From IMG/VR virus record IMGVR_UViG_3300005589_000092, positions 1 through 26,411 of that record: a stretch of DNA of 26,411 nucleotides. One strand, given 5' to 3'. The notes under the pieces are model-generated. The model made no database searches. It had not been told where the DNA came from and saw nothing but the letters and a program-made list of their open reading frames with translations. This document shows positions 5,037 through 24,650 of this stretch, one piece after another. The position numbers and the translations under genes are program-made. Positions within the stretch are counted from its first letter, which is position 1; each line of letters opens with the position of its first letter. The DNA comes from a virus.

Positions 5037-5047
5037 TCATAAAAGTA

Positions 5048-5075
5048 TGTACATTTCACATCAGTGTGGTATAAT
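5048..5075 (+). promoter_or_regulatory. sigma70/sigmaA-type promoter
   Basis: TGTACA (5048-5053), 16-bp spacer, TATAAT (5070-5075), with TG one base before the -10 hexamer (extended -10). Transcription would start near 5082, at the left end of the structured RNA element. The same design recurs at 9198, 11120 and 22480. Confidence 0.75.
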
Positions 5076-5082
5076 AAGAATG

Positions 5083-5254
5083 TGGATGAGCGGATCGAAT
5101 ATAAAACGTGACACATGTTGTACCCGATAAACTATATAGAACATTGGATCAAAACCTTGATTCAGAAATAATATTCCTTAAGCATTGTGTCCTTAAGGTT
5201 CGGGAAAAAGTAGTCAGATGCCATTTGGCTGACAGGTATTCGAATCCCCATCTA
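5083..5254 (+). ncRNA. candidate structured RNA with tRNA-like ends (function unknown)
   Basis: No open frame with a ribosome site lies between the promoter and 5282. The element begins about where transcription should start. Its ends can pair: TGGATG (5083-5088) with CATCTA (5249-5254). Inside are a 9-bp hairpin (5144-5152 with 5157-5165, loop AACC), a 6-bp hairpin CCTTAA/TTAAGG (5176-5181 with 5193-5198), and a two-part hairpin (GTCA/TGAC, 5213-5233, with inner GCC/GGC). A T-loop-like TTCGAAT (5239-5245) sits just before CCCCATCTA. I could not fold it as a standard tRNA: it is too long and the T stem does not pair. A leader or novel RNA is possible. The stem set is hand-found and not energy-scored. 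Confidence 0.4.
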
Positions 5255-5281
5255 AATCAACCAACAACCTAGGAGGGTAAA

Positions 5282-5440
5282 ATGAGAGAATATTTATTAA
5301 ATCAATTGGAAGAAATTAAAAAGGATATAACTAGAACTTTAGAATCTGGTAAAACAATAAACTTAGATCTTGTAGATTCTTATAATCAAATGTTAAGATC
5401 TATCGAAGATTTAGATAATCAAATTGAAATTTACTGTTAA
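5282..5440 (+). CDS. hypothetical small coiled-coil-like protein (52 aa)
   Basis: Unrecognised. First gene after the structured RNA, with the strong site CCTAGGAGGGTAAA directly before ATG 5282. The product is almost entirely helical and acidic (QLEEIKKDITRTLESGK...MLRSIEDLDNQIEIYC), heptad-like, so it may dimerise. The translation-initiation sequence is repeated nearly exactly in front of the next gene. Confidence 0.7.
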   Translation: MREYLLNQLEEIKKDITRTLESGKTINLDLVDSYNQMLRSIEDLDNQIEIYC

Positions 5441-5461
5441 TCAACTACCTAGGAGGGTAAA

Positions 5462-5635
5462 ATGTTAAATATGAATTTGAAAGAAAAGATATTTACTGAT
5501 TGGAATGAATTTTATGAAAACACAGATTTACTGATAGAGGATTTGGATTTAAATTACTATTATGAAGATATGGAAACTGGAAGATTTTCACTAAGTAAAT
5601 TTAGTGGTGGATCTAAAGTAGCAATCTGGTGGTAA
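5462..5635 (+). CDS. hypothetical acidic protein (57 aa)
   Basis: Unrecognised. Preceded by the same ACCTAGGAGGGTAAA initiation sequence as the gene before it. Acidic, with a Tyr cluster (DLNYYYEDME) and a C-terminus ending AIWW. No motif identified. The next gene's SD overlaps its stop codon (TAAGGAGG), so translation is probably coupled. Confidence 0.7.
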   Translation: MLNMNLKEKIFTDWNEFYENTDLLIEDLDLNYYYEDMETGRFSLSKFSGGSKVAIWW

Positions 5636-5648
5636 GGAGGACGGTAAA

Positions 5649-5771
5649 ATGTTAGAAATATTTATGGAAGGATTTCAAATAGGATTATTTATAGGAGCCA
5701 TTATATTTTCTGTAAGTTTTGTAACTCATAAGCATTTGAGAGGAGATCCAGATGAGAACACTAACTCTTGA
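5649..5771 (+). CDS. small single-pass membrane protein (40 aa)
   Basis: Start at ATG 5649 after AAGGAGGACGGTAAA. One hydrophobic segment of about 18 residues (GFQIGLFIGAIIFSVSFV, residues 8-25) followed by a polar tail HKHLRGDPDENTNS, so probably an inner-membrane peptide with its C-terminus in the cytoplasm. Family unknown; early phage membrane peptides often alter host physiology or exclude other phages, but nothing here specifies a role. It overlaps the next gene by 20 nt. Confidence 0.6.
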   Translation: MLEIFMEGFQIGLFIGAIIFSVSFVTHKHLRGDPDENTNS

Positions 5772-5916
5772 AAGAGACCAATATCAAACTACACCAAACA
5801 AAAATCATTATGATGTATTTACACTTGAAGATATGTATCTAATGTTTGACATAGAAGGAGAATGTTTTGGATATGAATTTGAAGATGGCAAGTTTGCTAG
5901 ACTGATAATTGAATAG
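5752..5916 (+). CDS. hypothetical acidic protein (54 aa)
   Basis: Unrecognised small protein with start ATG 5752 after GAGGAGATCCAG inside the preceding membrane-peptide gene. It is soluble and acidic (TLEDMYLMFDIEGECFGYEFEDGKF). It is the last gene before a strong intrinsic terminator at 5936, so it closes the transcription unit that starts at the 5048 promoter. Confidence 0.65.
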   Translation: MRTLTLERDQYQTTPNKNHYDVFTLEDMYLMFDIEGECFGYEFEDGKFARLIIE

Positions 5917-5935
5917 ATATAACAGGATCTTAAAT

Positions 5936-5984
5936 AAAAAGGCTTTAGCTGACAATCATTGGTGTATTCAGTTAAAACCTTTTT
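5936..5984 (+). terminator. intrinsic terminator
   Basis: Long stem: AAAAAGG (5936-5942) with CCTTTTT (5978-5984), then TTTAGCTGA (5944-5952) with TCAGTTAAA (5968-5976), one internal C/A mismatch and a 15-base loop. The stem ends in a run of T. It closes the small-gene operon started at the 5048 promoter. The A-run on the 5' side makes it potentially bidirectional. Confidence 0.85.
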
Positions 5985-6017
5985 GTTACATAACCTATTA
6001 TTAGAAAGGAGTTTCAT

Positions 6018-6134
6018 ATGATTAGAATAGATTTTATGGATTTAGTTGCATTAGCAGTAATTGGAACAATATGGGTGGTATTCTTAATTGGAATCGCTTA
6101 CTATAATATCAAAGCTAGAATCTTAAGGATGTGA
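6018..6134 (+). CDS. small single-pass membrane protein (38 aa)
   Basis: ATG 6018 with AAAGGAG 8 nt upstream. Almost the whole product is one hydrophobic helix (LVALAVIGTIWVVFLIGIA, about 9-27), followed by a basic tail (YYNIKARILRM). The basic C-terminus favours an N-out, C-in orientation. No family recognised. It is the first gene after the terminator, and no promoter is obvious in the 33-bp gap, so it may be expressed by read-through. Confidence 0.6.
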   Translation: MIRIDFMDLVALAVIGTIWVVFLIGIAYYNIKARILRM

Positions 6135-6162
6135 AGAAAAAACGACAAGAATTGAGGTATAT

Positions 6163-6336
6163 ATGAATATGAAAATTGTACAGGAAACAGTTGAAGGTTT
6201 AGAGAAAAAGATTAAAGAAGAACAAAAATGGTGTGCAGATAATCACCATGATATTGAAGGTAGATCTGAAAGGATCAAGAAAATATTAGATTTCAGATCT
6301 AAAATAACAATCTTAAAGAATAGGAGAAGATTATGA
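6163..6336 (+). CDS. hypothetical charged helical protein (57 aa)
   Basis: Unrecognised. Start ATG 6163 after GAGGTATAT. Strongly charged and helical (ETVEGLEKKIKEEQKWC...), coiled-coil-like, ending in a very basic tail (ITILKNRRRL). The stop codon TGA overlaps the next ATG (ATGA), a classic coupling junction. Confidence 0.6.
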   Translation: MNMKIVQETVEGLEKKIKEEQKWCADNHHDIEGRSERIKKILDFRSKITILKNRRRL

Positions 6337-11597: not shown

Positions 11598-11837
11598 ATG
11601 AACAGATGGCAATTGCAACTTGATAAACATGAAAGAATTTTAAACATTGATCAAATGGATCCAAACTTAAAAGAGATAACATTGATTACTCATGATAAAC
11701 TTGTTATTGTGAATATTCAAGAAAATCAAAATCCAGCTATCTACAATGATATTTTAGAAATAGTATTACAAGTAGAAACTTACGAATTTGATAATAAATC
11801 TCAATTATTTATTCCAAAAGAATGGAGGAAGATGTAA
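11598..11837 (+). CDS. hypothetical protein (79 aa)
   Basis: Unrecognised. ATG 11598 follows CAGGAGATGATGAC. Mixed composition with hydrophobic beta-strands (LKEITLITHDKLVIVNIQE) and a helix-like ILEIVLQVETYEF; it ends in a basic PKEWRKM. It sits immediately before the Prp-like gene, whose SD (GGAGGAAG) is located in its final codons, so co-translation is likely. Confidence 0.65.
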   Translation: MNRWQLQLDKHERILNIDQMDPNLKEITLITHDKLVIVNIQENQNPAIYNDILEIVLQVETYEFDNKSQLFIPKEWRKM

Positions 11838-11838
11838 C

Positions 11839-12186
11839 ATGAAAATTAGTGTTTTTAAGAAACAAAATTTTGAAGGAGATATAATCGGAATTACAAGAGT
11901 TATTGTTAAAGAACATCATCCAACTCCTACTGTTTGTACTGCTGTATCAACTTTAATGCAAAGTATAGGATTAGAACTTATGGATTATGGATTAGATGCA
12001 TTTTCAAGAAGTCATGATTTTAAATCAAACAGTAATGATGTGAATATGATGATTAATTGTCCAGAAGATCACGAATGTCAAATACTAATGAAATTTTTAG
12101 TTAATTCTTTAATAAATATCAGAAACCAGTTTGGAGCAATTCATTTAGAGATTATCACTTATAGAGATGAAACCAACGTCCATTGA
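11839..12186 (+). CDS. Prp-like ribosomal-processing cysteine protease homologue
   Basis: 115-aa protein matching the fold pattern of Prp, the cysteine protease that trims the N-terminal extension of ribosomal protein L27 in Firmicutes and, in some staphylococcal phages, capsid and scaffold proteins. Visible: an opening strand (MKISVFKK, then GITRVIV), His pair H26/H27, catalytic-type C33 within TVCTAVSTLMQS, equivalent to the Prp DIVCAAVSxL motif, then a strand and helix (VNMMINCPED; ILMKFLVNSLINI) and the closing strand LEIITY. The His-to-Cys loop is only 6-7 residues, against 12 in S. aureus Prp (H22/C34). ATG 11839 is set by GGAGGAAG; upstream ATGs lack sites. Activity is plausible but unproven. 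Confidence 0.7.
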   Translation: MKISVFKKQNFEGDIIGITRVIVKEHHPTPTVCTAVSTLMQSIGLELMDYGLDAFSRSHDFKSNSNDVNMMINCPEDHECQILMKFLVNSLINIRNQFGAIHLEIITYRDETNVH

Positions 12187-13769: not shown

Positions 13770-14429
13770 ATGCCAACGGTATTGAGAGAAATCTATACAG
13801 AGGAATCTGAAGAAGAGCTAATGGCAATGTCTAGGAAAGAAGTCACCCGAGATCTTACAGAAAGACAAAGAAAATTCTGTGAGTATTATACGGGTGATTT
13901 TAATATTAAGACATCAGCTATAAAGGCAGGATATGCCAAAGCATCAGCTCATCTTACTGGATGGCAGGTCCGAAACTTACCAAAAGTCAACAGATATATT
14001 TGTTGGCTTAAATTACGTGTAAGTAAAAGTTGTCATATAAATGCGATGGATCTGGTTGATATGTATGCCAGAATAGCTTTTGCTGATATGACAGATTTTG
14101 TTAAAGTAAAGAATGGAAGATTATCTATAGCAGATACTGAAGACATCGATGGTCAGATTGTAAAGAAAATCAAGAAGGGACGAGATGGAATTACTATTGA
14201 ACTTGAAGATAGAATGCGAGCTATGGAGAAGTTGGAGAATTACTTTGACGTAAGGCCTGCAGACTGGAAACAACGTATTGAAGAACGTAAAGTTAAGATC
14301 CTTGAAGAGAAACTAGCGTTAGACAAAAAACGCTTAGGAGAAGGTGATGAATGGGAAGACGATGGATTCCTAGAAGCTATTGAGGATATAACAGAAGAGG
14401 TGTGGTCAGATGAAGAAACAGAAGATTAA
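13770..14429 (+). CDS. terS: terminase small subunit
   Basis: DNA-recognition subunit of the packaging motor. After a short acidic head, residues from about 30 show the classic terminase small-subunit helix-turn-helix: LTERQRKFCEYYTGDFN, then IKAGYAKASAHLTGWQVRNLPKVNRYI. The next part (DLVDMYARIAFADMTDF ... DRMRAMEKLENYF) matches the oligomerisation region of the Terminase_2 family. The C-terminus is acidic (GEGDEWEDDGFLEAIEDI), where it would contact the large subunit. ATG 13770 is chosen because GGGAGG lies 5 nt upstream; a GTG at 13758 is the alternative. It overlaps the large-subunit gene by 20 nt. Confidence 0.88.
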   Translation: MPTVLREIYTEESEEELMAMSRKEVTRDLTERQRKFCEYYTGDFNIKTSAIKAGYAKASAHLTGWQVRNLPKVNRYICWLKLRVSKSCHINAMDLVDMYARIAFADMTDFVKVKNGRLSIADTEDIDGQIVKKIKKGRDGITIELEDRMRAMEKLENYFDVRPADWKQRIEERKVKILEEKLALDKKRLGEGDEWEDDGFLEAIEDITEEVWSDEETED

Positions 14430-15813
14430 ACAGATAGATAAGAATGACTACATAAACGCAGTAGAGCCAAAGAATACGTATAATAAAAAACGTATGTTTA
14501 AGTGGACTAAACTAAGTAAGAAACAAAAGAAGGTACTAACATGGTGGACTTCTAATTCTCCAGTCAGAGACAAGGATCTACTGATTGCAGACGGAGCTGT
14601 CAGAAGCGGTAAAACATTAATAATGAGCTTCTCCTACGTGATCTGGGCAATGTCAACCTTTAATTATGCTAAATTTGGTATGGCAGGAAAGACAGTTGGA
14701 TCCTTTAGGCGAAACGTAGTATTTCTATTAAAGATTATCTTGCGTTTGAGAGGATATTCAGTAACAGATAAGAGAACAGAAAATATGTTGATCATATCAA
14801 GGAATGATAGAATAAATTACTTCTATATCTTTGGTGGTAATGATGAACGGTCACAGGATTTAGTACAAGGATTCACATCAGCTGGATTCTTCTTCGACGA
14901 GGTAACGTTAATGCCTCAATCATTTGTCAATCAGGCGGTTGCCAGATGCTCTGAGGAAGGTGCTAAAATGTGGTTTAACTGCAATCCAAGAGGGCCATAT
15001 CATTGGTTTAAGTTAGAATGGATTGACAAAGTTAAAGAAAAGAACGGAATCAGATTGCATTTTGATCTAGACGATAACCCATCACTTAGTGAAAAGGTTA
15101 AAGCGAGATATAGAAGAATGTTCAAGGGCGTATTCTATATGAGATATATTCTAGGTTTATGGGTAATGGCAGAAGGATTAATCTATGGTGTATTCAATCA
15201 GGATATGATTATAAATGATCTACCTAGAGGAATTAAAATGAAGAACAAATGGATCGGCATTGACTACGGACAATCTAATCCAACAGTATTTCTATTAATT
15301 GCTTATGGATCAGATCACAGGATCTACATTTTAGATGAGTATATATATGATGGAAAATCAACGGTAGAGTCAAAACAAAAATCTCCATCTATGTTAGCTA
15401 AAGATTTTAAGATCTGGTTGAGAAAGAATGGACCAATGCAGCAAAATATGAAAAGAACTTCTTTAAGATATGATAGAGCATACATAGATCCATCAGCAAA
15501 AGGATTTATATTGCAACTACACGAAGAAGGAGTAGGAAACATCTCTACAGCAAACAATGATGTGAATAGAGGTATTGAATTACTATCATCTCTTATAGAA
15601 AATGATTTATTAAGAGTAATGTCACATTGCAAAAATACGATTAAAGAATTCTTCTCTTATAAATGGGATGAGAAAGCTCAGGAAAAGGGAGAAGATAAAC
15701 CAGTTAAAGAACACGATCACTGTATGGACGCATTACGATACTTTGCTAATGGCCAACGTGAGTTATTACAACGATTGATAGTTGCATACGGATCTATAAG
15801 AAAGGCGGCATGA
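14410..15813 (+). CDS. terL: terminase large subunit
   Basis: ATPase and nuclease that pump and cut concatemeric DNA at the portal, 467 aa. ATPase part: Walker A GAVRSGKT (62-69), the Walker B region GFFFDEV with D163/E164, and the coupling segment WFNCNPRGPYHWFK (188-201). RNase H-like nuclease part: WIGIDYGQSNP with D285, YIDPSAKGF with D360, and EHDHCMDALRYF with D436/D440. All key residues are present. The layout resembles PBSX/SPP1-type terminases. Start ATG 14410 has AGAGGTG upstream inside terS. The organisation small-large-(accessory)-portal is as expected, with seven extra reading frames and one decayed copy before the portal. Confidence 0.95.
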   Translation: MKKQKIKQIDKNDYINAVEPKNTYNKKRMFKWTKLSKKQKKVLTWWTSNSPVRDKDLLIADGAVRSGKTLIMSFSYVIWAMSTFNYAKFGMAGKTVGSFRRNVVFLLKIILRLRGYSVTDKRTENMLIISRNDRINYFYIFGGNDERSQDLVQGFTSAGFFFDEVTLMPQSFVNQAVARCSEEGAKMWFNCNPRGPYHWFKLEWIDKVKEKNGIRLHFDLDDNPSLSEKVKARYRRMFKGVFYMRYILGLWVMAEGLIYGVFNQDMIINDLPRGIKMKNKWIGIDYGQSNPTVFLLIAYGSDHRIYILDEYIYDGKSTVESKQKSPSMLAKDFKIWLRKNGPMQQNMKRTSLRYDRAYIDPSAKGFILQLHEEGVGNISTANNDVNRGIELLSSLIENDLLRVMSHCKNTIKEFFSYKWDEKAQEKGEDKPVKEHDHCMDALRYFANGQRELLQRLIVAYGSIRKAA

Positions 15814-15814
15814 T

Positions 15815-15967
15815 ATGACTAAATTAGAATCATTTTGTAGATTTGATTGTAGATTAAAAGGGCAATATTTAAATGTACTTCTTGAAACAGGTAAGGATAT
15901 TTGCAATATATGCCCTTTAAAGCAATATCTAAAAGAAGAAAAGCAGAAAATCACAAAGGAGAAGTAA
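15815..15967 (+). CDS. four-cysteine mini protein (50 aa)
   Basis: Unrecognised. ATG 15815 starts 1 nt after the terminase stop, with AAAGGCGG in the terminase end as a modest site. Cysteines are C8, C12, C31 and C34 (FCRFDCR ... ICNICP), so CxxxC...CxxC could hold one zinc. Lys-rich C-terminus (KEEKQKITKEK). Confidence 0.6.
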   Translation: MTKLESFCRFDCRLKGQYLNVLLETGKDICNICPLKQYLKEEKQKITKEK

Positions 15968-15968
15968 T

Positions 15969-16229
15969 ATGAGAGTAAGAGTACAAGGGCATTATAATGT
16001 AAGTCCTATTCCATCAGATAATCCAACTAAAGCATATATTAACAGCATTGATGGAGCTCAATTTGATGAGATAATAATTTGTGATAAATTTGAAACACTT
16101 GAAGACATAAAAAATATTCTTAAAAGGGTATATGATATAGCAGATGTAACCATTTATAGAATGCTAACTCCTAGTAATAGGATATTTGCATTATATCATG
16201 CTAAAATTGGTTGGATGATATACGATTAG
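15969..16229 (+). CDS. hypothetical protein (86 aa)
   Basis: Unrecognised. ATG 15969 after AAAGGAGAAGTAAT. Mixed alpha/beta: RVRVQGHYNV, FDEIIICDKFETLEDIKNI, VYDIADVTIYRM, ending in aromatic-rich ALYHAKIGWMIYD. No motif, membrane segment or signal. Confidence 0.65.
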   Translation: MRVRVQGHYNVSPIPSDNPTKAYINSIDGAQFDEIIICDKFETLEDIKNILKRVYDIADVTIYRMLTPSNRIFALYHAKIGWMIYD

Positions 16230-16242
16230 AAAGGAGATCTTA

Positions 16243-16389
16243 ATGAAACTTTTATTAGCAACAGCTTTGATATTCTTATATGGTACAATCATTGTACTAG
16301 GGACACAAGTGTACGCAATAGCATTTATTTTAATCATGATGTGTATAATTGTATATCTTATCTTAAAAAATACTGAGCAATTGGAATGA
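16243..16389 (+). CDS. small two-helix membrane protein (48 aa)
   Basis: ATG 16243 after AAAGGAGATCTTA. Two hydrophobic helices: LLLATALIFLYGTIIVLG (3-20) and AIAFILIMMCIIVYLIL (25-41), separated by a short turn (TQVY) and ended by the polar tail KNTEQLE. Size and shape would suit a holin-like or other phage membrane peptide, but placement between terminase and structural genes is not diagnostic and no endolysin is nearby. A diverged second copy lies directly downstream in the same frame (see next entry). Confidence 0.65.
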   Translation: MKLLLATALIFLYGTIIVLGTQVYAIAFILIMMCIIVYLILKNTEQLE

Positions 16390-16512
16390 CTTGGCGCACA
16401 TGGTAAAACATTGTACAATACAACACAAGTGCTTACCATGTTATTCATTTTAGTAGCTATAATAGCTATAATCTACATGATCCTAAAGAATACAGAGGTA
16501 AGCAAAGAATAA
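16390..16512 (+). pseudogene. diverged tandem copy of the two-helix membrane gene
   Basis: Reading on in the same frame after the TGA of the previous gene gives LYNTTQVLTMLFILVAI, then IIYMILKNTEVSKE, which aligns with LYGT...TQVYAIAFILIMM, then VYLILKNTEQLE of the upstream gene. It keeps the second helix and the KNTE tail but not a proper first helix. Possible starts are TTG 16411 or ATG 16438 (24 aa), neither with a ribosome site, so it may be silent or need coupling or read-through. The DNA also aligns (CATTGTAC, ACACAAGTG, ATTTTA blocks). Tandem duplication followed by decay is the simplest reading. Confidence 0.5.
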
Positions 16513-16525
16513 GGAGGTGAATTTC

Positions 16526-16810
16526 ATGTCTAGGCCGACGGGATTAATAGCAGATAAAATGACACATAGAATTAAAGATTTCAGAAAACTAATCGGCAAG
16601 AAAATAGAATGCAATGGCATGAAATATATAATTGTAAACGTGGGGTACCAACCTGGCACTTATGGCCTTACGTTAGACGGAACAACAAATCCAGGAAATA
16701 GAGGTGTTTGGGTAAAAGGCTTAAATGATCTACATCAATTAAAGTTTATTACAATAAAAGAAATAAATGCACATTATAAATGGATAAGGGAGGATAGAAG
16801 TAATGGTTGA
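16526..16810 (+). CDS. hypothetical protein (94 aa)
   Basis: Unrecognised. ATG 16526 (MSRPTGLIADKM) with AAGGAGGTG 7 nt upstream; GTG 16517 lies within that site and is less likely. Small beta-rich protein: KKIECNGMKYIIVNVGY, GTYGLTLDG, RGVWVKGL, compatible with an SH3-like barrel. It ends with a helix and a basic tail. It overlaps the following structural gene by 8 nt. Confidence 0.65.
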   Translation: MSRPTGLIADKMTHRIKDFRKLIGKKIECNGMKYIIVNVGYQPGTYGLTLDGTTNPGNRGVWVKGLNDLHQLKFITIKEINAHYKWIREDRSNG

Positions 16811-17708
16811 TAACCCTAACAAAACCAGAACATATAGAGCAGGAAAGGCATTTACAAGTGATGGGACATACATCAATATATACGATCTATTCTTTGAACT
16901 ACAACAATTGATAATGTCATGGGAAGCTAATGGAATTCCGATAGATGATAGAGAACCGATAGAAACTTTAGAACAAGACAATACTAATGCACCATTTATA
17001 GCAAATATAAATCAGGTAATAGTTAGAACAACAACAGCATCAATAGCAACAAAGGACACTTTTACAGTTGATATTACTGATATTACAGGATTTTTAGTAG
17101 GAGATTCCCTTGTTATAGGAGATATTCTTGCAGATAGATTTTATTTTGGATCTATACTAGATATTACGGTAAATACAATAACAATGGATACCCCTTTTGA
17201 TTATACATTTCCCTCAGGATCTCCATGCAGTACAAGATCAACAAATATGGCAGTTGACGGAAGTATAACCCCTCAAACGTTTTCTGTTAGAGGAGAAGGA
17301 AGTGAGCAAATACCAACAGTATTTGATATTTCAAGAATAATTATTACATGCCTAACAGACACAGCTTGTAGTTTGATAGAATTTGGTGATATCCCTAAAT
17401 TATTAAGAGGATTAGTTATGAGAAGAGTTAATGGAGATACAAATAATATCTTTAATGTTAAATCAAATCAGGATCTGGCAAACCTTGCATTTGATTTTGA
17501 TATTTATGCATCAACCAATCCAGTACAAGGACAAGACGGATTTACATGCAGACTTACATTTAATGGACAAAGTAAAATGGGAGTAGCAATAAGGATTGGG
17601 CCAGGTGAGGACATTGAATTTATTGTACAAGATGATTTAACTGATATCAACAATTTAAGCATAATAGTGGAAGGACATATAGTAGATGTAGGGTATACAG
17701 GATATTAG
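16803..17708 (+). CDS. putative beta-rich virion protein (301 aa)
   Basis: No named family. ATG 16803 after GGGAGGATAGAAGTA. An N-terminal helical part (YINIYDLFFELQQLIMSW) is followed by almost continuous beta-strand predictions with repeated Thr/Ile/Asp (TKDTFTVDITDITGFLVGD; DITVNTITMDTPFDYTF) and a C-terminal VEGHIVDVGYTGY. Composition (few Lys, many Thr/Asn/Asp, no catalytic motif) is typical of phage structural proteins such as collar, fibre or decoration subunits. Position between terminase and portal, in front of two more beta-rich genes, supports a virion component. Exact location in the particle is unknown. Confidence 0.55.
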   Translation: MVDNPNKTRTYRAGKAFTSDGTYINIYDLFFELQQLIMSWEANGIPIDDREPIETLEQDNTNAPFIANINQVIVRTTTASIATKDTFTVDITDITGFLVGDSLVIGDILADRFYFGSILDITVNTITMDTPFDYTFPSGSPCSTRSTNMAVDGSITPQTFSVRGEGSEQIPTVFDISRIIITCLTDTACSLIEFGDIPKLLRGLVMRRVNGDTNNIFNVKSNQDLANLAFDFDIYASTNPVQGQDGFTCRLTFNGQSKMGVAIRIGPGEDIEFIVQDDLTDINNLSIIVEGHIVDVGYTGY

Positions 17709-18507: not shown

Positions 18508-20088
18508 ATGGCACGATTTAAAGAAGATCTAAGGTTTCCATTAGGTGGAACCCTTTATACAAAGATGAGAGAATATGCTGTGTGGTATAGTGGCGAACCA
18601 GATTTTCTAACGGAATATTATAATACTCTGGATCCGCAAAATATATTTAATACACAGTATCAAGTTAGAAAAAATAATTTCTGGGCGAGACAGGCTTATA
18701 GTGCAGGAACATCAGCAGTTCACATTCCTTTAGCTGGATCAATTGCTGAATTAAGTGCAGATCTTCTATTTGCAGAGGCACCAGCTATTAAATTAGATGA
18801 GGCTTTCAAAGAAGATGCAACTAATGAAGCTAAAGAATCTCAAGAAGAGTTAGATCAATTGCTTAGTAATGTTGAATTAAATAAAGAATGTTTACAAGGG
18901 GCTGAATTGGCTGCGGCTATTGGTGGAGTTTATATGAAAATAGCTTTTGATGAGGATCTTATTGATAGACCAATCCTGCAGTTAGAACAAATGGATAATG
19001 CCATTGCTAAATTTAGATATGGAATATTAACGGAAGTATCATTCTTTAATGCAGTATTTGCGGAATCAGCAAGTGCAGCAAAACAAAATGGAACTACTGC
19101 AAAAGTTTATAGATTGGTTGAAACATATACCAATAAAGGCACAATTGAATATGAATTATATGAAGGTACGTGTGATAAATTAGGTACAGAAATTGGGGTA
19201 GAATCTAGAGAAGAAACAAGTGATCTTGAAGATATCGATACTGGATACGATGAAATTCTTTGTCAGTATGTTCCTAATATGTTACCTAATAGAATTTCTA
19301 GAGATTCATATATTGGTCGTAGTGATCTACAAGGATTGGAAACATTGATGCTTTCATTAGATGAGTCATATAGTTCATGGATGCGTGATATTAAACTTTC
19401 AAAGGCTAAAATAATCGTTCCAGCAACTTGGTTAGAAGAGAGAGTTGGGGATGATTCAGGAACTAAAGAAACTACTTATGATACTGATAGAGCATTATAT
19501 GCTAAGTTGAATATAGATCCTGTATCAATGACAAATCTGAAAGCAGAGGCTGTACAATTTAAAATCCGTGCAGATGAATTTGAAAAGACATGTATGAATT
19601 TAATTGAAAGGGCTGTATCTCTTGCAGGATATGCACCTCAATCATTTGGAATTAATATTGCTGGAAGAGTAGAATCTGGAACAGCATTAGCAAAAAGAGA
19701 AGGTAGATCAGAAAAGAAAAAGGTTAAGAAAGAATCATTCTGGCAAACACCTTTAAATAAAGTGGTACAAGGTTTAATTTTTATTCATAATCAAGAATTT
19801 GGAGGATCCATCATGGAAGATTCAAATATAACAATTGAATTTAGTGATGGGGTAGCTTATGGAATTACTGAACTTGCAGATGCTGTTCAAAAAATAAGAG
19901 CTGCAAAAGCTGCATCAACTAAAACTATCGTTATGATGTTGCATGCTGATTGGACTGATGAGCAAGTTGATAATGAAGTTGAAAAAATTATAGCTGAAGA
20001 TAGAGCAGCAGAATTTGAAGATCCTGCTTTTCAAAGTGAGGTAGATCGTTTTAATCAACTTAAGGATCAAGACAATAACGAAGAATAG
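18508..20088 (+). CDS. portal protein (SPP1 gp6/A118-like)
   Basis: Dodecameric gate at the unique head vertex through which DNA enters and leaves, 526 aa, usual length for the SPP1_gp6-like family. Typical parts: an N-terminal head with YNTLDPQNIFNTQYQ and the NNFWARQAY block, AELSADLLFAEAP (stem/wing start), a central acidic region, WMRDIKLSKAKIIVPATWLE, and the C-terminal stretch SGTALAKREGRSEKKKV (clip/crown region), where the family has SGtAl...r..t...K. The C-terminus is acidic helical (crown). ATG 18508 has TAGGAGGACAAC upstream. Directly upstream of the minor capsid gene, in the family's standard order. Confidence 0.9.
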   Translation: MARFKEDLRFPLGGTLYTKMREYAVWYSGEPDFLTEYYNTLDPQNIFNTQYQVRKNNFWARQAYSAGTSAVHIPLAGSIAELSADLLFAEAPAIKLDEAFKEDATNEAKESQEELDQLLSNVELNKECLQGAELAAAIGGVYMKIAFDEDLIDRPILQLEQMDNAIAKFRYGILTEVSFFNAVFAESASAAKQNGTTAKVYRLVETYTNKGTIEYELYEGTCDKLGTEIGVESREETSDLEDIDTGYDEILCQYVPNMLPNRISRDSYIGRSDLQGLETLMLSLDESYSSWMRDIKLSKAKIIVPATWLEERVGDDSGTKETTYDTDRALYAKLNIDPVSMTNLKAEAVQFKIRADEFEKTCMNLIERAVSLAGYAPQSFGINIAGRVESGTALAKREGRSEKKKVKKESFWQTPLNKVVQGLIFIHNQEFGGSIMEDSNITIEFSDGVAYGITELADAVQKIRAAKAASTKTIVMMLHADWTDEQVDNEVEKIIAEDRAAEFEDPAFQSEVDRFNQLKDQDNNEE

Positions 20089-20099
20089 AGGTGAAATAA

Positions 20100-22205
20100 A
20101 TGCCTGATTTTAATCGAAATGTTGAAGACTTTTTAGAGGAAATAGTAAACCTCTTGAAAGTAGAAGAAAGAGACATGATGAAAGTTGTTAAGAATAGATT
20201 GGCTACAGGCATTGAGGATGATGGTTGGGCAGAGAAGAAATTATCTGAAGTTAGATCTATGAAAAATCAATTAATGTTTGCTCAGCAAAAAGGTGCATCT
20301 AATAAGGTTTATAAAGAAATCCAAGATCTACATGAGCAAGCATATATGTCTGGTGGGATATATGGAGAAACAGGAAAATTCGGAGCTAATTTCACTGCAA
20401 TGACTCCAGATGTTAAACTTCCTAGATCTGTGCAAGCCTTAATTCTTGAAAGGCAACAATCTTTTAAGAATGGCAGACTGTTAATGTTAAGAAATGCAGA
20501 AGATGATTATAGAAACATTATTGCAGAAACTACCCAACTTTTGAGATTAGGAACTAAGACCAAGAAACAGGCTTTACAAATATCCTTAAATAAATTTGCT
20601 GATAAAGGAATAACAGGATTTGTAGATAAAACAGGTAAGAATTGGAATTTACACACTTATTCAGAAATGGCTTTAAGAACAACATCTTTTAATGCTGCCA
20701 GGATCGGCGCATTAGATAGAGTAATTGATGCAGGTTTAAATTATGTACAGGTATCAAGTCATGGTAATCCGTGCCCATTTTGTGCACCGTATGATGGAGC
20801 AGTTTTAGCTATCAATGAATATAACAATCCTGAAAATAGACCTTTGTTATCTGATGCAATTGCTAACGGATTATTTCATCCTAATTGTAAACATATGATT
20901 TCAGGATATGTTGAAGGTGCATCAATTCCAGTTAAGCAACCTTATGACAAACAAGGCTATTTGGATACTCAGACTCAAAGATACAACGAAAGGCAGATAC
21001 GTAAGTGGAAATTACGTCATGAGGTAGCGCTAGATGATGATCTAAAAGGTTTTACTAAAGGCAAGGTATCCTATTATCAAGCTAAGCAAAGGGATCTCTT
21101 AAAGGATTATGAGTCCCGTACAGGCAAGATTTTAAAAAGACGTTATGATAGGGAAGCTCCTTTGAGATTAGGTAAAGAAGGACAAATAAAACCGCTACGA
21201 TCTTACAAGAAAAAAGTAGTAGCACCTAAACCACCAGAAATAGAATTTGAAACAATGGATGATTTTATAAAAAATAGTGGTAGTAAAAAAGTTTCTTATG
21301 GGCCTAGATATAACAAAAAGAGTGGAAAACTTTCTGATGCATTGGATGATTTTGATGATTATCCTTCTAAAGCAAGTGACTTTGTTGAAGATCTTAATTA
21401 TGATTTTATGCTTTTGCATGATCATCAAGAAGATGTGATTATTGAGGAAGCCAGAAGATTATTGGTCAGTAAAACTAAATTAAATTCTAGATTAGATACT
21501 TTAGCTAAAGGGAAAAGAAGACTTAGAGACTTTGAAAATATTGCAGAAGATTTAACTGAAGAATTAAAAGATTATGCTAAGAAAAACAACTTAGGTAGAA
21601 TGAGAGATCTGGTTAGAAAATCGGCACCCGGTGCTGGAGGAGATATTGGAGAAGATGAATTAATGAAACTTTATGCAAAGTTATTCGATAATAGTCTTTT
21701 GGATACTCCTAAAATTATATCTAATGATCTATTTGATAAAATGAGATCCAATGGAGAATTAGAGTTATGGCGTGGTTTTGGATCTAGATTAAATAGAATG
21801 AAGGCTTTTGATCAAGGGGAGAATTATTTTGGTAAAGGAATTTACGGGAATGGGACTTATACTGCAATAGGAAGAGACGTTGCAACATCTTATGATAAAA
21901 CCTATGGAGCTTCAAATATCATGAGTTATATTATTCATCCTAATACACAATTTATTAACTGGGATGATATTCAAGAATTAGCAAATATAGTTAGAAACGA
22001 TAAATCGTTTGGATTTACTAAAGCAACTAGAGAAATATTCGGAGAAGAAGGTAGACTTGCTGCAGCTCTTGGATATGATGGAATCTATATTGATAAAAAT
22101 GAATATTTAGTAATGCTTAATAGATCTAAATTTTTAATGAAACAACCAAGCAAGAGTAAATACACGACAGCCGGTAAGGTTGCTAGAGAAAAGAATGGTT
22201 TGTAG
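20100..22205 (+). CDS. minor capsid protein with C-terminal ADP-ribosyltransferase-like domain
   Basis: Two-part protein of 701 aa. Residues 1-290 match phage minor capsid protein 2 (A118/MuF-like head morphogenesis): helical N-terminus, then SEMALRTTSFNAARIGA, and the metal-type motif NPCPFCAPYDG (C225, C228) with FHPNCKH (H260, C263). A charged linker region (about 300-520) follows. The C-terminal part (from about 525) looks like an ADP-ribosyltransferase: LELWRGF with R558, GKGIYGNGTYTA (578-589), AAALGYDGIYID and EYLVMLNRS (from E668). In other phages such MuF-linked toxin domains are thought to be carried in the head and injected to modify host proteins; that role is inferred here. The start (ATG 20100) has AGAGGTG upstream. 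Confidence 0.8.
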   Translation: MPDFNRNVEDFLEEIVNLLKVEERDMMKVVKNRLATGIEDDGWAEKKLSEVRSMKNQLMFAQQKGASNKVYKEIQDLHEQAYMSGGIYGETGKFGANFTAMTPDVKLPRSVQALILERQQSFKNGRLLMLRNAEDDYRNIIAETTQLLRLGTKTKKQALQISLNKFADKGITGFVDKTGKNWNLHTYSEMALRTTSFNAARIGALDRVIDAGLNYVQVSSHGNPCPFCAPYDGAVLAINEYNNPENRPLLSDAIANGLFHPNCKHMISGYVEGASIPVKQPYDKQGYLDTQTQRYNERQIRKWKLRHEVALDDDLKGFTKGKVSYYQAKQRDLLKDYESRTGKILKRRYDREAPLRLGKEGQIKPLRSYKKKVVAPKPPEIEFETMDDFIKNSGSKKVSYGPRYNKKSGKLSDALDDFDDYPSKASDFVEDLNYDFMLLHDHQEDVIIEEARRLLVSKTKLNSRLDTLAKGKRRLRDFENIAEDLTEELKDYAKKNNLGRMRDLVRKSAPGAGGDIGEDELMKLYAKLFDNSLLDTPKIISNDLFDKMRSNGELELWRGFGSRLNRMKAFDQGENYFGKGIYGNGTYTAIGRDVATSYDKTYGASNIMSYIIHPNTQFINWDDIQELANIVRNDKSFGFTKATREIFGEEGRLAAALGYDGIYIDKNEYLVMLNRSKFLMKQPSKSKYTTAGKVAREKNGL

Positions 22206-22959: not shown

Positions 22960-22994
22960 TAGCACGTATGCTTAAATATGGAAGGAGAAAATGT

Positions 22995-23657
22995 ATGAGT
23001 AAAGTTTCAGATGTACTTACTTCTCAATCTTATACCAAGGCAACCGAAGAACAAAAGACTGCATTACAAGTAGCTTATGATTCAATTTCGAAAGCATTGG
23101 AAGGATCTGGATTTAGAGTACTAATCAGTCAAGTTGAAGGAGACAAACAAGAGTTTGTACCATCAGCAAGAATTGATGAAGTCACAGCACAAAAAGGGAT
23201 TTTATCAGGGCAAATTGATAAGTTGAATAAACAACTTTTAAAACTGGAAACAGAAGCATCTGAGAATAATGATCCTACTTTGGTTAAGAAGTATCAAGAT
23301 ATGGTTAAGAAAAATAACAAATTAAAGGCAGACATGAATGCCAAAGAACTGGATCATAAAATTGATCTTGCTGTTAGAGAACTTAAACCACTTGATGTTG
23401 ATGACTTTAAAAAAATGATTGACAGAGATGCAATCACTAGATCTGAAGATGGAGAAATCCTAGGGCTAGACGAGGAAATGACGAGATTAAGAGAGTCCAA
23501 AAGCTACATGCTAGAAAAATCTGATACTAAAGATAAAGATAGAAAGAAAACTTTTGACAAAAATAATAAAAAAGATGTCAAAGAACCTCCTTCTATTAAT
23601 GATATGATTAGATCGGCAGCAGGCAGAGGACGAGCAATGACATCTCAAGATGATTGA
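22995..23657 (+). CDS. capsid scaffold protein (phage GP20-like)
   Basis: Internal scaffold that guides procapsid assembly, 220 aa. Typical features of the GP20 scaffold family: a long heptad-rich helical middle (GILSGQIDKLNKQLLKLETEA; QDMVKKNNKLKADMNAKE), the following LDHKIDLAVRELKPLDVDDFKKMID block, and LGLDEEMTRLRESKSYM, then a charged C-terminus ending with a basic, Arg-Gly containing tail (SAAGRGRAM) that would bind the capsid shell. ATG 22995 is set by GGAAGGAG; the frame is open from 22968. Directly upstream of the major capsid gene, as expected. Confidence 0.85.
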   Translation: MSKVSDVLTSQSYTKATEEQKTALQVAYDSISKALEGSGFRVLISQVEGDKQEFVPSARIDEVTAQKGILSGQIDKLNKQLLKLETEASENNDPTLVKKYQDMVKKNNKLKADMNAKELDHKIDLAVRELKPLDVDDFKKMIDRDAITRSEDGEILGLDEEMTRLRESKSYMLEKSDTKDKDRKKTFDKNNKKDVKEPPSINDMIRSAAGRGRAMTSQDD

Positions 23658-23675: not shown

Positions 23676-24650
23676 ATGATGAAAAACGTTTTTAGAATTA
23701 TTCTTAATTACTTCGGATATGACGATGTAATTGATAGAACTGGGGCTCAAGCTTTAATGCCAGAAGAAGTATCAAGAGAAATTATTGATGGGGTTGCAGA
23801 ATCTTCAGTGATTATGCAATTAGCAACACGTGCTCCTAATATGAGTAGAGCTCAAAGAAGAATGCCTGTATTATCAGTTCTTCCTACTGCTTACTTTGTT
23901 AATGGAGATACAGGATTAAAACAAACTACTTCTCAAGAATGGGGAAATAAATATTTAGATGCTGAAGAAATTGCAGTTATTGTTCCTATTCCTGAATCAG
24001 TTTTGGCTGATGCAGATTACGATATTTTTGAAGAAATTAAACCACGTTTGATTGAAGCTATTGGTATTGTATTTGATCAAGCTGTTATGTATGGTACAAA
24101 TGCTCCAGCATCTTGGCCAACTGATTTAAAAGCGGCAGCAACTGCAGCAGGAAATGCAGTTACTTTAGGTACTGGTACAGATTTATACGATGATCTTTTA
24201 GGTGAAAGCGGTGTTATCTCTGCTCTTGAATTAGACGGATATATGGCTAATGGTCATGTAGCAATTATGTCTATGAGAGGAAAATACAGAGGATTACGTG
24301 ATGCTGATGGAAATCCTATTTTCAGAACAGGTATGAATGAATCAACTAATTACACATTGGACGGAGCTCCATGTATGTTTCCTAAAAATGGTGCAATGGA
24401 TTCATCAGTTCTTCAATTTTCTGGTGATTTTAAACAAATTATTTATGCTATCCGTCAGGATATCACTTATAAAGTTTTAGATCAAGCAGTTATTACTGAT
24501 GGTGACGGAAACATTGTTTACAACTTAGCTCAACAAGATATGGTTGCTTTGAGAGTTGTTTTGAGAGTGGCTTGGCAAGTTCCTAATCCTATTAATAGAC
24601 TTCAAGAAACTGAAGCAAATAGATATCCTGTTTCTATTCTATTACCATAG
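23676..24650 (+). CDS. major capsid protein (HK97 fold)
   Basis: Shell subunit, 324 aa. The region from about 23 (TGAQALMPEEVSREIIDGV) through VIMQLATRAPNM to RMPVLSVLPTAYFVNGD and IVPIPESVLADADYDIF is the classic N-arm, long spine helix and P-domain start of HK97-fold capsid proteins; GTNAPASWP and the A-domain strands (ITYKVLDQAVITD, MVALRVVLRVAWQVPNP) follow. It lacks the large cleaved delta domain, matching the use of a separate scaffold. The first 20 residues (MMKNVFRIILNYFGYDD) form an unusual hydrophobic leader. Codons with T in third position are frequent, as in a highly expressed gene. GGAGG lies 6 nt before the start codons. Confidence 0.9.
   Translation: MMKNVFRIILNYFGYDDVIDRTGAQALMPEEVSREIIDGVAESSVIMQLATRAPNMSRAQRRMPVLSVLPTAYFVNGDTGLKQTTSQEWGNKYLDAEEIAVIVPIPESVLADADYDIFEEIKPRLIEAIGIVFDQAVMYGTNAPASWPTDLKAAATAAGNAVTLGTGTDLYDDLLGESGVISALELDGYMANGHVAIMSMRGKYRGLRDADGNPIFRTGMNESTNYTLDGAPCMFPKNGAMDSSVLQFSGDFKQIIYAIRQDITYKVLDQAVITDGDGNIVYNLAQQDMVALRVVLRVAWQVPNPINRLQETEANRYPVSILLP

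Follow-up and report, generated by a model that had tools for sequence, protein, structure and literature searches.

The window analysed here, a single virus record of 26,411 bases, carries a gene for a 115-amino-acid (aa) protein that is close to certainly homologous to Prp. Our preferred reading, to which we assign a probability of about 0.55, is that this protein is a short-loop Prp-type cysteine protease that trims the phage's own capsid and major tail protein at a shifted cut site. C33 would serve as the nucleophile, most likely together with H26, and in the course of virion assembly the protease would trim the N-termini of the capsid protein (IILNYF↓GYDD, the arrow marking the proposed cut) and of the major tail protein (LILDFF↓TKIL). 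Under this reading, the loss of a Gly/Asp pair from the loop of the enzyme would be matched by Asn and Asp replacing the P3 Gln of the proposed substrates. We infer the catalytic activity of the protein, the cut itself and the change in specificity from sequence comparison and a predicted fold.

A Prp homologue among small genes

The Prp-like open reading frame (ORF) starts with the ATG at 11839 and directly adjoins the preceding gene (Table 1). A preliminary description, made from the letters of the window, had likened its product to Prp for an AVSxL motif with C33, and this homology was upheld: the stretch CTAVSTL, C33, H26 and H27 are all present, and the profile search proposed at that stage returned PF04327 (Peptidase_Prp) over residues 31-99 at E=1.4e-4, yet with 22.4 bits, short of the curated gathering score of 27 bits. 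The phrog_4478 profile ("peptidase") matched at E=1.4e-3, and a search of NCBIfam profiles with the protein gave no match. An HMM built from 104 Prps, with the 115-aa protein left out, scored it at 20.7 bits, against a best score of 11.8 bits among 5000 shuffles of the same protein, which argues that the likeness is not due to chance. We accordingly consider a chance resemblance extremely improbable: the Pfam score does lie below its cut-off, and no relative was found by direct tblastn of annotated phages or by a viral-contig scan, but the matches from two HMM libraries agree with the outcome of the fold search and of the shuffle control. The searches turned up no second copy of the gene. As it stays below the Pfam cut-off and lacks two residues essential to S. 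aureus Prp (SaPrp), we do not file the protein as a proven C108 peptidase.

An AlphaFold2 model with 104 relatives in the alignment (pLDDT 80.8, pTM 0.76) predicts the element order ββαββαβ, which is that of the Prp fold, as had been read from the sequence. This model leans on the alignment of Prp relatives; without them, pLDDT is 59, and the same order is seen for the two helices, a strand ahead of the first of them and the final strand. All ten Foldseek matches of the model with E up to 0.001 were Prps, and in VIA-align seven Prp entries reached Z 12.1 to 13.6, followed by a designed protein at Z 7.3. A structure prediction had been suggested as a way to see whether a His reaches C33; the predicted model has the Prp fold, with C33 in the first helix (30-49) and H26 in the loop formed by residues 25-29.

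Located among small genes, the Prp-like gene precedes the terminase genes and is not part of the head module. The tail genes of the phage were taken from an overlapping record (L075 and L076), which matches the window at 100% and 99.96% identity over 8.6 and 2.6 kb, respectively, and the earlier remark that the phage has no other head protease holds for both records as far as their head and tail proteins were scanned. Judged by the terminase, the closest contigs are L002 (98-99% over the terminase, then diverging) and L003, L004 and L010 (58-59%). Along positions 14170-17620 of the window, L002 matches at 98% over the terminase and at 72% after a stretch with other genes, one of them phosphoesterase-like (L002:2175-2999), forming a sharp mosaic border.

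Other features of this phage were recorded in passing. The minor head protein (20100-22205, PF06152) has a C-terminal part that is weakly ART-PolyVal-like (E=0.063, below cut-off), and a short ORF at 6815-7177 matches NAD-dependent DNA ligase in its N-terminal Ia domain only (PF22745, 4.5e-17). The 1.3 kb at 5037-6332, which lack ORFs of 60 aa, contain only shorter ORFs and gave no Rfam match. In the overlapping record, a carbamoyltransferase gene (PF16861, 1.3e-46) adjoins an ORF that looks thymidylate synthase-like by eye (L075:4043-5857 and L075:5865-7289), a pair that may point to DNA base modification.

Table 1. Coordinates of the Prp-like gene, its candidate catalytic codons and the head genes considered in the window
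Feature	Position	Strand	Basis or remark
GGAGG ribosome-binding site of the Prp-like gene	11824..11828	+	Read directly; ten bases 5' of the start
Prp-like gene, predicted protease, 115 aa	11839..12186	+	PF04327 E=1.4e-4, phrog_4478, AlphaFold model, PDB matches
Codon of H26, candidate catalytic His	11914..11916	+	Invariant column, 105 Prps
Codon of C33, candidate nucleophile	11935..11937	+	Invariant column, 105 Prps
Terminase large subunit	14410..15813	+	Prp of relatives sits between terminase and portal genes; absent there here
Portal protein	18508..20088	+	phrog_533, 4.4e-76
Scaffold protein, no cut-site-like N-terminus	22968..23657	+	phrog_194, PF06810
Major capsid protein, proposed substrate	23676..24650	+	phrog_10, 1.6e-50
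Capsid N-terminal extension MMKNVFRIILNYF, proposed cut before GYDD	23676..23714	+	Aligns with Prp sites of related capsids

Catalytic residues and the short His-Cys loop

H26 and C33 occupy the only invariant columns of the 105-row Prp alignment, and the 115-aa protein thus retains both the catalytic Cys and the catalytic His. S37, one helix turn past the Cys, corresponds to SaPrp Ser38 in a column conserved in 90% or more of the sequences. Neither the Gly before the His nor the loop Asp of SaPrp is present: Gly21 is replaced by E25 and Asp31 by P30, and the loop pair Gly29/Asp31 is absent. In SaPrp, G21A and D31A each abolish activity, and Gly29 and Asp31 bond the P3 Gln of the substrate (PMC9405229). 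An Asp three residues before the Cys can be absent elsewhere in the family, as T. maritima Prp and the phage Prp of L084 show.

The spacing to C33 is 7 residues from H26 and 6 from H27, against 12 in SaPrp (H22-C34), and the His-Cys loop had therefore been described as shortened to about half, which is a fair estimate. It is no anomaly, since the spacing of 7 also occurs in T. maritima Prp (TM1457, 1S12), whose loop has already been described as half the length of that of S. aureus, with Pro18 letting the His adopt its active pose (PMC9405229). The 115-aa protein has a Pro two residues past H26, matching Pro18, and H26 is the most likely partner of the candidate nucleophile C33. The phage Prps of L084 and L159 share the spacing of 7 as well. 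How frequent each spacing is cannot be read from our sample, as its 125 distinct spacing-12 Prps were mostly fetched by a pattern that demands 12.

Candidate substrates and competing explanations

When the 76 forward ORFs were scanned near their starts with a relaxed motif ([LIVMF]x[LIVM]xx[FL] followed by a small residue), Phe at P1 was seen in just two matches, those of the capsid and the major tail protein, the candidate sites being MMKNVFRIILNYF↓GYDD and MEKNTMFDLILDFF↓TKIL. By our own arithmetic, the chance of both matches falling within the four classes with Prp sites in relatives (scaffold, capsid, the protein after the capsid, and tail protein) is approximately 0.002. In an alignment, the F↓G of the capsid coincides with the Prp-site position of related capsids. 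The extension is present in all four capsid relatives with their own Prp, as in the window phage, while of 12 larger contigs without a detected Prp, 10 have capsids beginning at the mature site and two carry a Gln-type site. Neither the scaffold nor the product of the gene after the capsid gene has a cut-site-like N-terminus in the window phage. The earlier suggestion that a phage copy could trim its own capsid is thus supported by the position of the extension and by the tail protein sequence, whereas an effect on processing of host ribosomal protein L27, proposed alongside it, is unsupported, as long L27s carry P3 Gln and the Gln-binding loop residues are absent here.

Several observations stand against trimming of the phage's own proteins, namely the E25 and P30 replacements, a gene outside its usual place, and the siteless scaffold and post-capsid gene. 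The main rival explanation, which we judge unlikely but ahead of the others, is that this Prp relative is catalytically dead and, by binding the substrate peptide or host Prp, for instance in mixed dimers, blocks or steers cutting. The loss of the two SaPrp-essential residues would fit such a role, as would the very long branch of the protein in the tree of 105 Prps (1.91 changes per column) and the location of the SaPrp substrate at the dimer interface (PMC9405229). H26, C33 and S37 are nevertheless kept, and so are the cut-site-like extensions, which are mostly missing in Prp-less relatives; both argue for an active enzyme.

The position of the gene among small genes, shared by the Prp of Enterococcus phage EC99P2, which likewise lies outside the head module, would also suit an active protease that acts on a host target, for example L27 or FlhB, in the course of infection, and some bacterial FlhB sites do lack the P3 Gln. 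We consider this improbable, because the same mismatch with the P3 Gln of long L27s applies and the capsid and tail proteins of the phage itself are better candidate sites. Less probable again is that host Prp trims the capsid and tail extensions and that the 115-aa protein does something unrelated. Related phages L095 and L109 have Gln-type sites with no Prp found in the record, and 80alpha is similar in having Gln-type sites and no Prp of its own (PMC5744158), but P3 Gln, which both candidate sites lack, is preferred by S. aureus-type host Prps. Trimming of its own capsid and major tail protein by the phage enzyme remains the reading we prefer.

Phage-encoded Prps and comparison with known systems

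That the gene is phage-encoded, as first described, stands, although it is not new in this respect: we found over 100 phage Prps, many of them adjoining scaffold, capsid and tail proteins whose N-termini read LxLQxF↓A. When canonical phage Prps were sought by pattern, at least 120 stretches were returned, and in at least 49 of the 80 loci inspected LxLQxF↓A-type N-termini occurred on nearby ORFs, many of which could be recognised as scaffold, capsid or tail proteins; an L27 gene was nearby in none of these 80 loci. The named phages phiFL3A and Fontainebleau and a Latilactobacillus phage are in line with these loci. In L003, L004, L010, L081, L084 and the phage of L086 (L327), Prp lies between the terminase and portal genes, and relatives of the window phage thus have it in the head module next to proteins with Prp sites. 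Prps encoded in phage head modules are therefore common. The literature found on 80alpha discusses only host Prp, and the literature searched, whose coverage did not extend to the key 2015 and 2017 papers, held no description of a phage-encoded Prp with matched substrates; for this reason we do not regard novelty as proven.

Prps also occur in other phage settings. Half-length forms of about 60 aa (GHEGHAEDGRVCAA) are found in high-GC phages (L172, L157, L166, L158 and others, including Kromp, L339:3501-3689), where the gene sits between scaffold and capsid and a WFxLxRHD sequence near the N-terminus is common to both proteins, possibly representing a further matched cut site. The Prp of EC99P2 (L341:5980-6267; GHAGASDGSTYDLVCAAVSA) is annotated as hypothetical and sits among small genes, far from the head genes. 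A Limosilactobacillus rudii genome (G101) holds two Prps (C57:119640 and C57:187388), one of them in a prophage locus (L182), which shows that phage and host Prps can coexist.

In the tree of 105 Prps, the three short-loop phage forms stand apart from one another, but with few forks resolved and long branches, so that an independent origin is only suggested. The L084 Prp had no match in genome contigs and the L159 Prp none among annotated phages. Across 398 genomes of a single phylum, the short-loop pattern was matched once, in antisense orientation to a chromosomal gene, and we took this match as chance.

Of 129 relaxed matches beside canonical-loop Prps, 108 had Gln at P3; several of the remainder are clearly spurious, and the plausible exceptions are Arg, Lys, Thr and His. 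Asp did not occur in any of the 129, and the single Asn looks spurious. Beside short-loop Prps, P3 is Asn (capsid) and Asp (tail) in the window phage, Asn and Asp (scaffold and capsid) in L159, whose two sites come from a separate scan and not from the pipeline used for the canonical-loop set, and Ser, Asn and Gln in L084, where Gln is kept at one of three sites; the trend is thus drawn from three short-loop lineages. As the loop lacks the Gly/Asp pair and the substrates have Asn or Asp at P3, enzyme and cut site apparently shifted together, a pairing that looks new and that recurs in L159, an unrelated short-loop phage Prp. A review table gives FlhB sites of T. maritima and Borrelia without P3 Gln (IELLLF↓A, IPLDFF↓S), which are a lead on this trend and not a test of it. 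We tentatively propose that phage Prps repeatedly and independently shortened the P3-reading loop and that, in parallel, their virion proteins replaced the P3 Gln with Asn or Asp. On the same tentative footing, this would yield a processing system apart from that of the host, with the window phage as the most extreme case found, having also lost the Gly before the His.

Prp is under study as a target for antibiotics, and the textbook example of a phage borrowing the Prp of its host is 80alpha. Many phages instead bring their own Prp beside matching virion proteins, and a few short-loop ones pair with altered cut sites. The latter represent natural enzyme-substrate pairs from which Prp specificity could be learned, and a role of the loop Gly/Asp pair in reading P3 Gln can be tested on them directly.

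Compared with S. aureus Prp (7KLD, 4PEO), the founding member of family C108, the 115-aa protein has a similar predicted fold (Z 13.2) and keeps the Cys, the His and the helix Ser, whereas SaPrp has a loop about five residues longer, retains Gly21, Gly29 and Asp31, and cuts L27 and the 80alpha scaffold and capsid at LxLQxF↓A. T. maritima TM1457 is alike in predicted fold (Z 13.0 over 91 residues), His-Cys spacing and the Pro two residues past the His, with 21% identity over the aligned part, but it keeps the Gly before the His and is a bacterial gene without a known substrate. The head-module Prps phiFL3A gp45 (Enterococcus) and the Fontainebleau "peptidase" (Acutalibacter) are likewise phage-encoded alongside a capsid with a cut-site-like N-terminus, and differ in their longer loop, their gene inside the head module and P3 Gln. 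The virus contigs L159 and L084 combine a spacing of 7 with at least one site lacking P3 Gln; unlike the 115-aa protein, from which the tree separates them, their Prps keep GHA and are encoded in the head module. Finally, gene 6 of Streptomyces phage Kromp, a 62-aa "protease", also matches the Prp family, in a phage with one altered N-terminal sequence common to scaffold and capsid (GWFQLTRHD, SWFRLDRHD), but it is half-length, its proposed-site sequence is another one, it lies between scaffold and capsid, and Kromp has an additional gene annotated as a capsid maturation protease.
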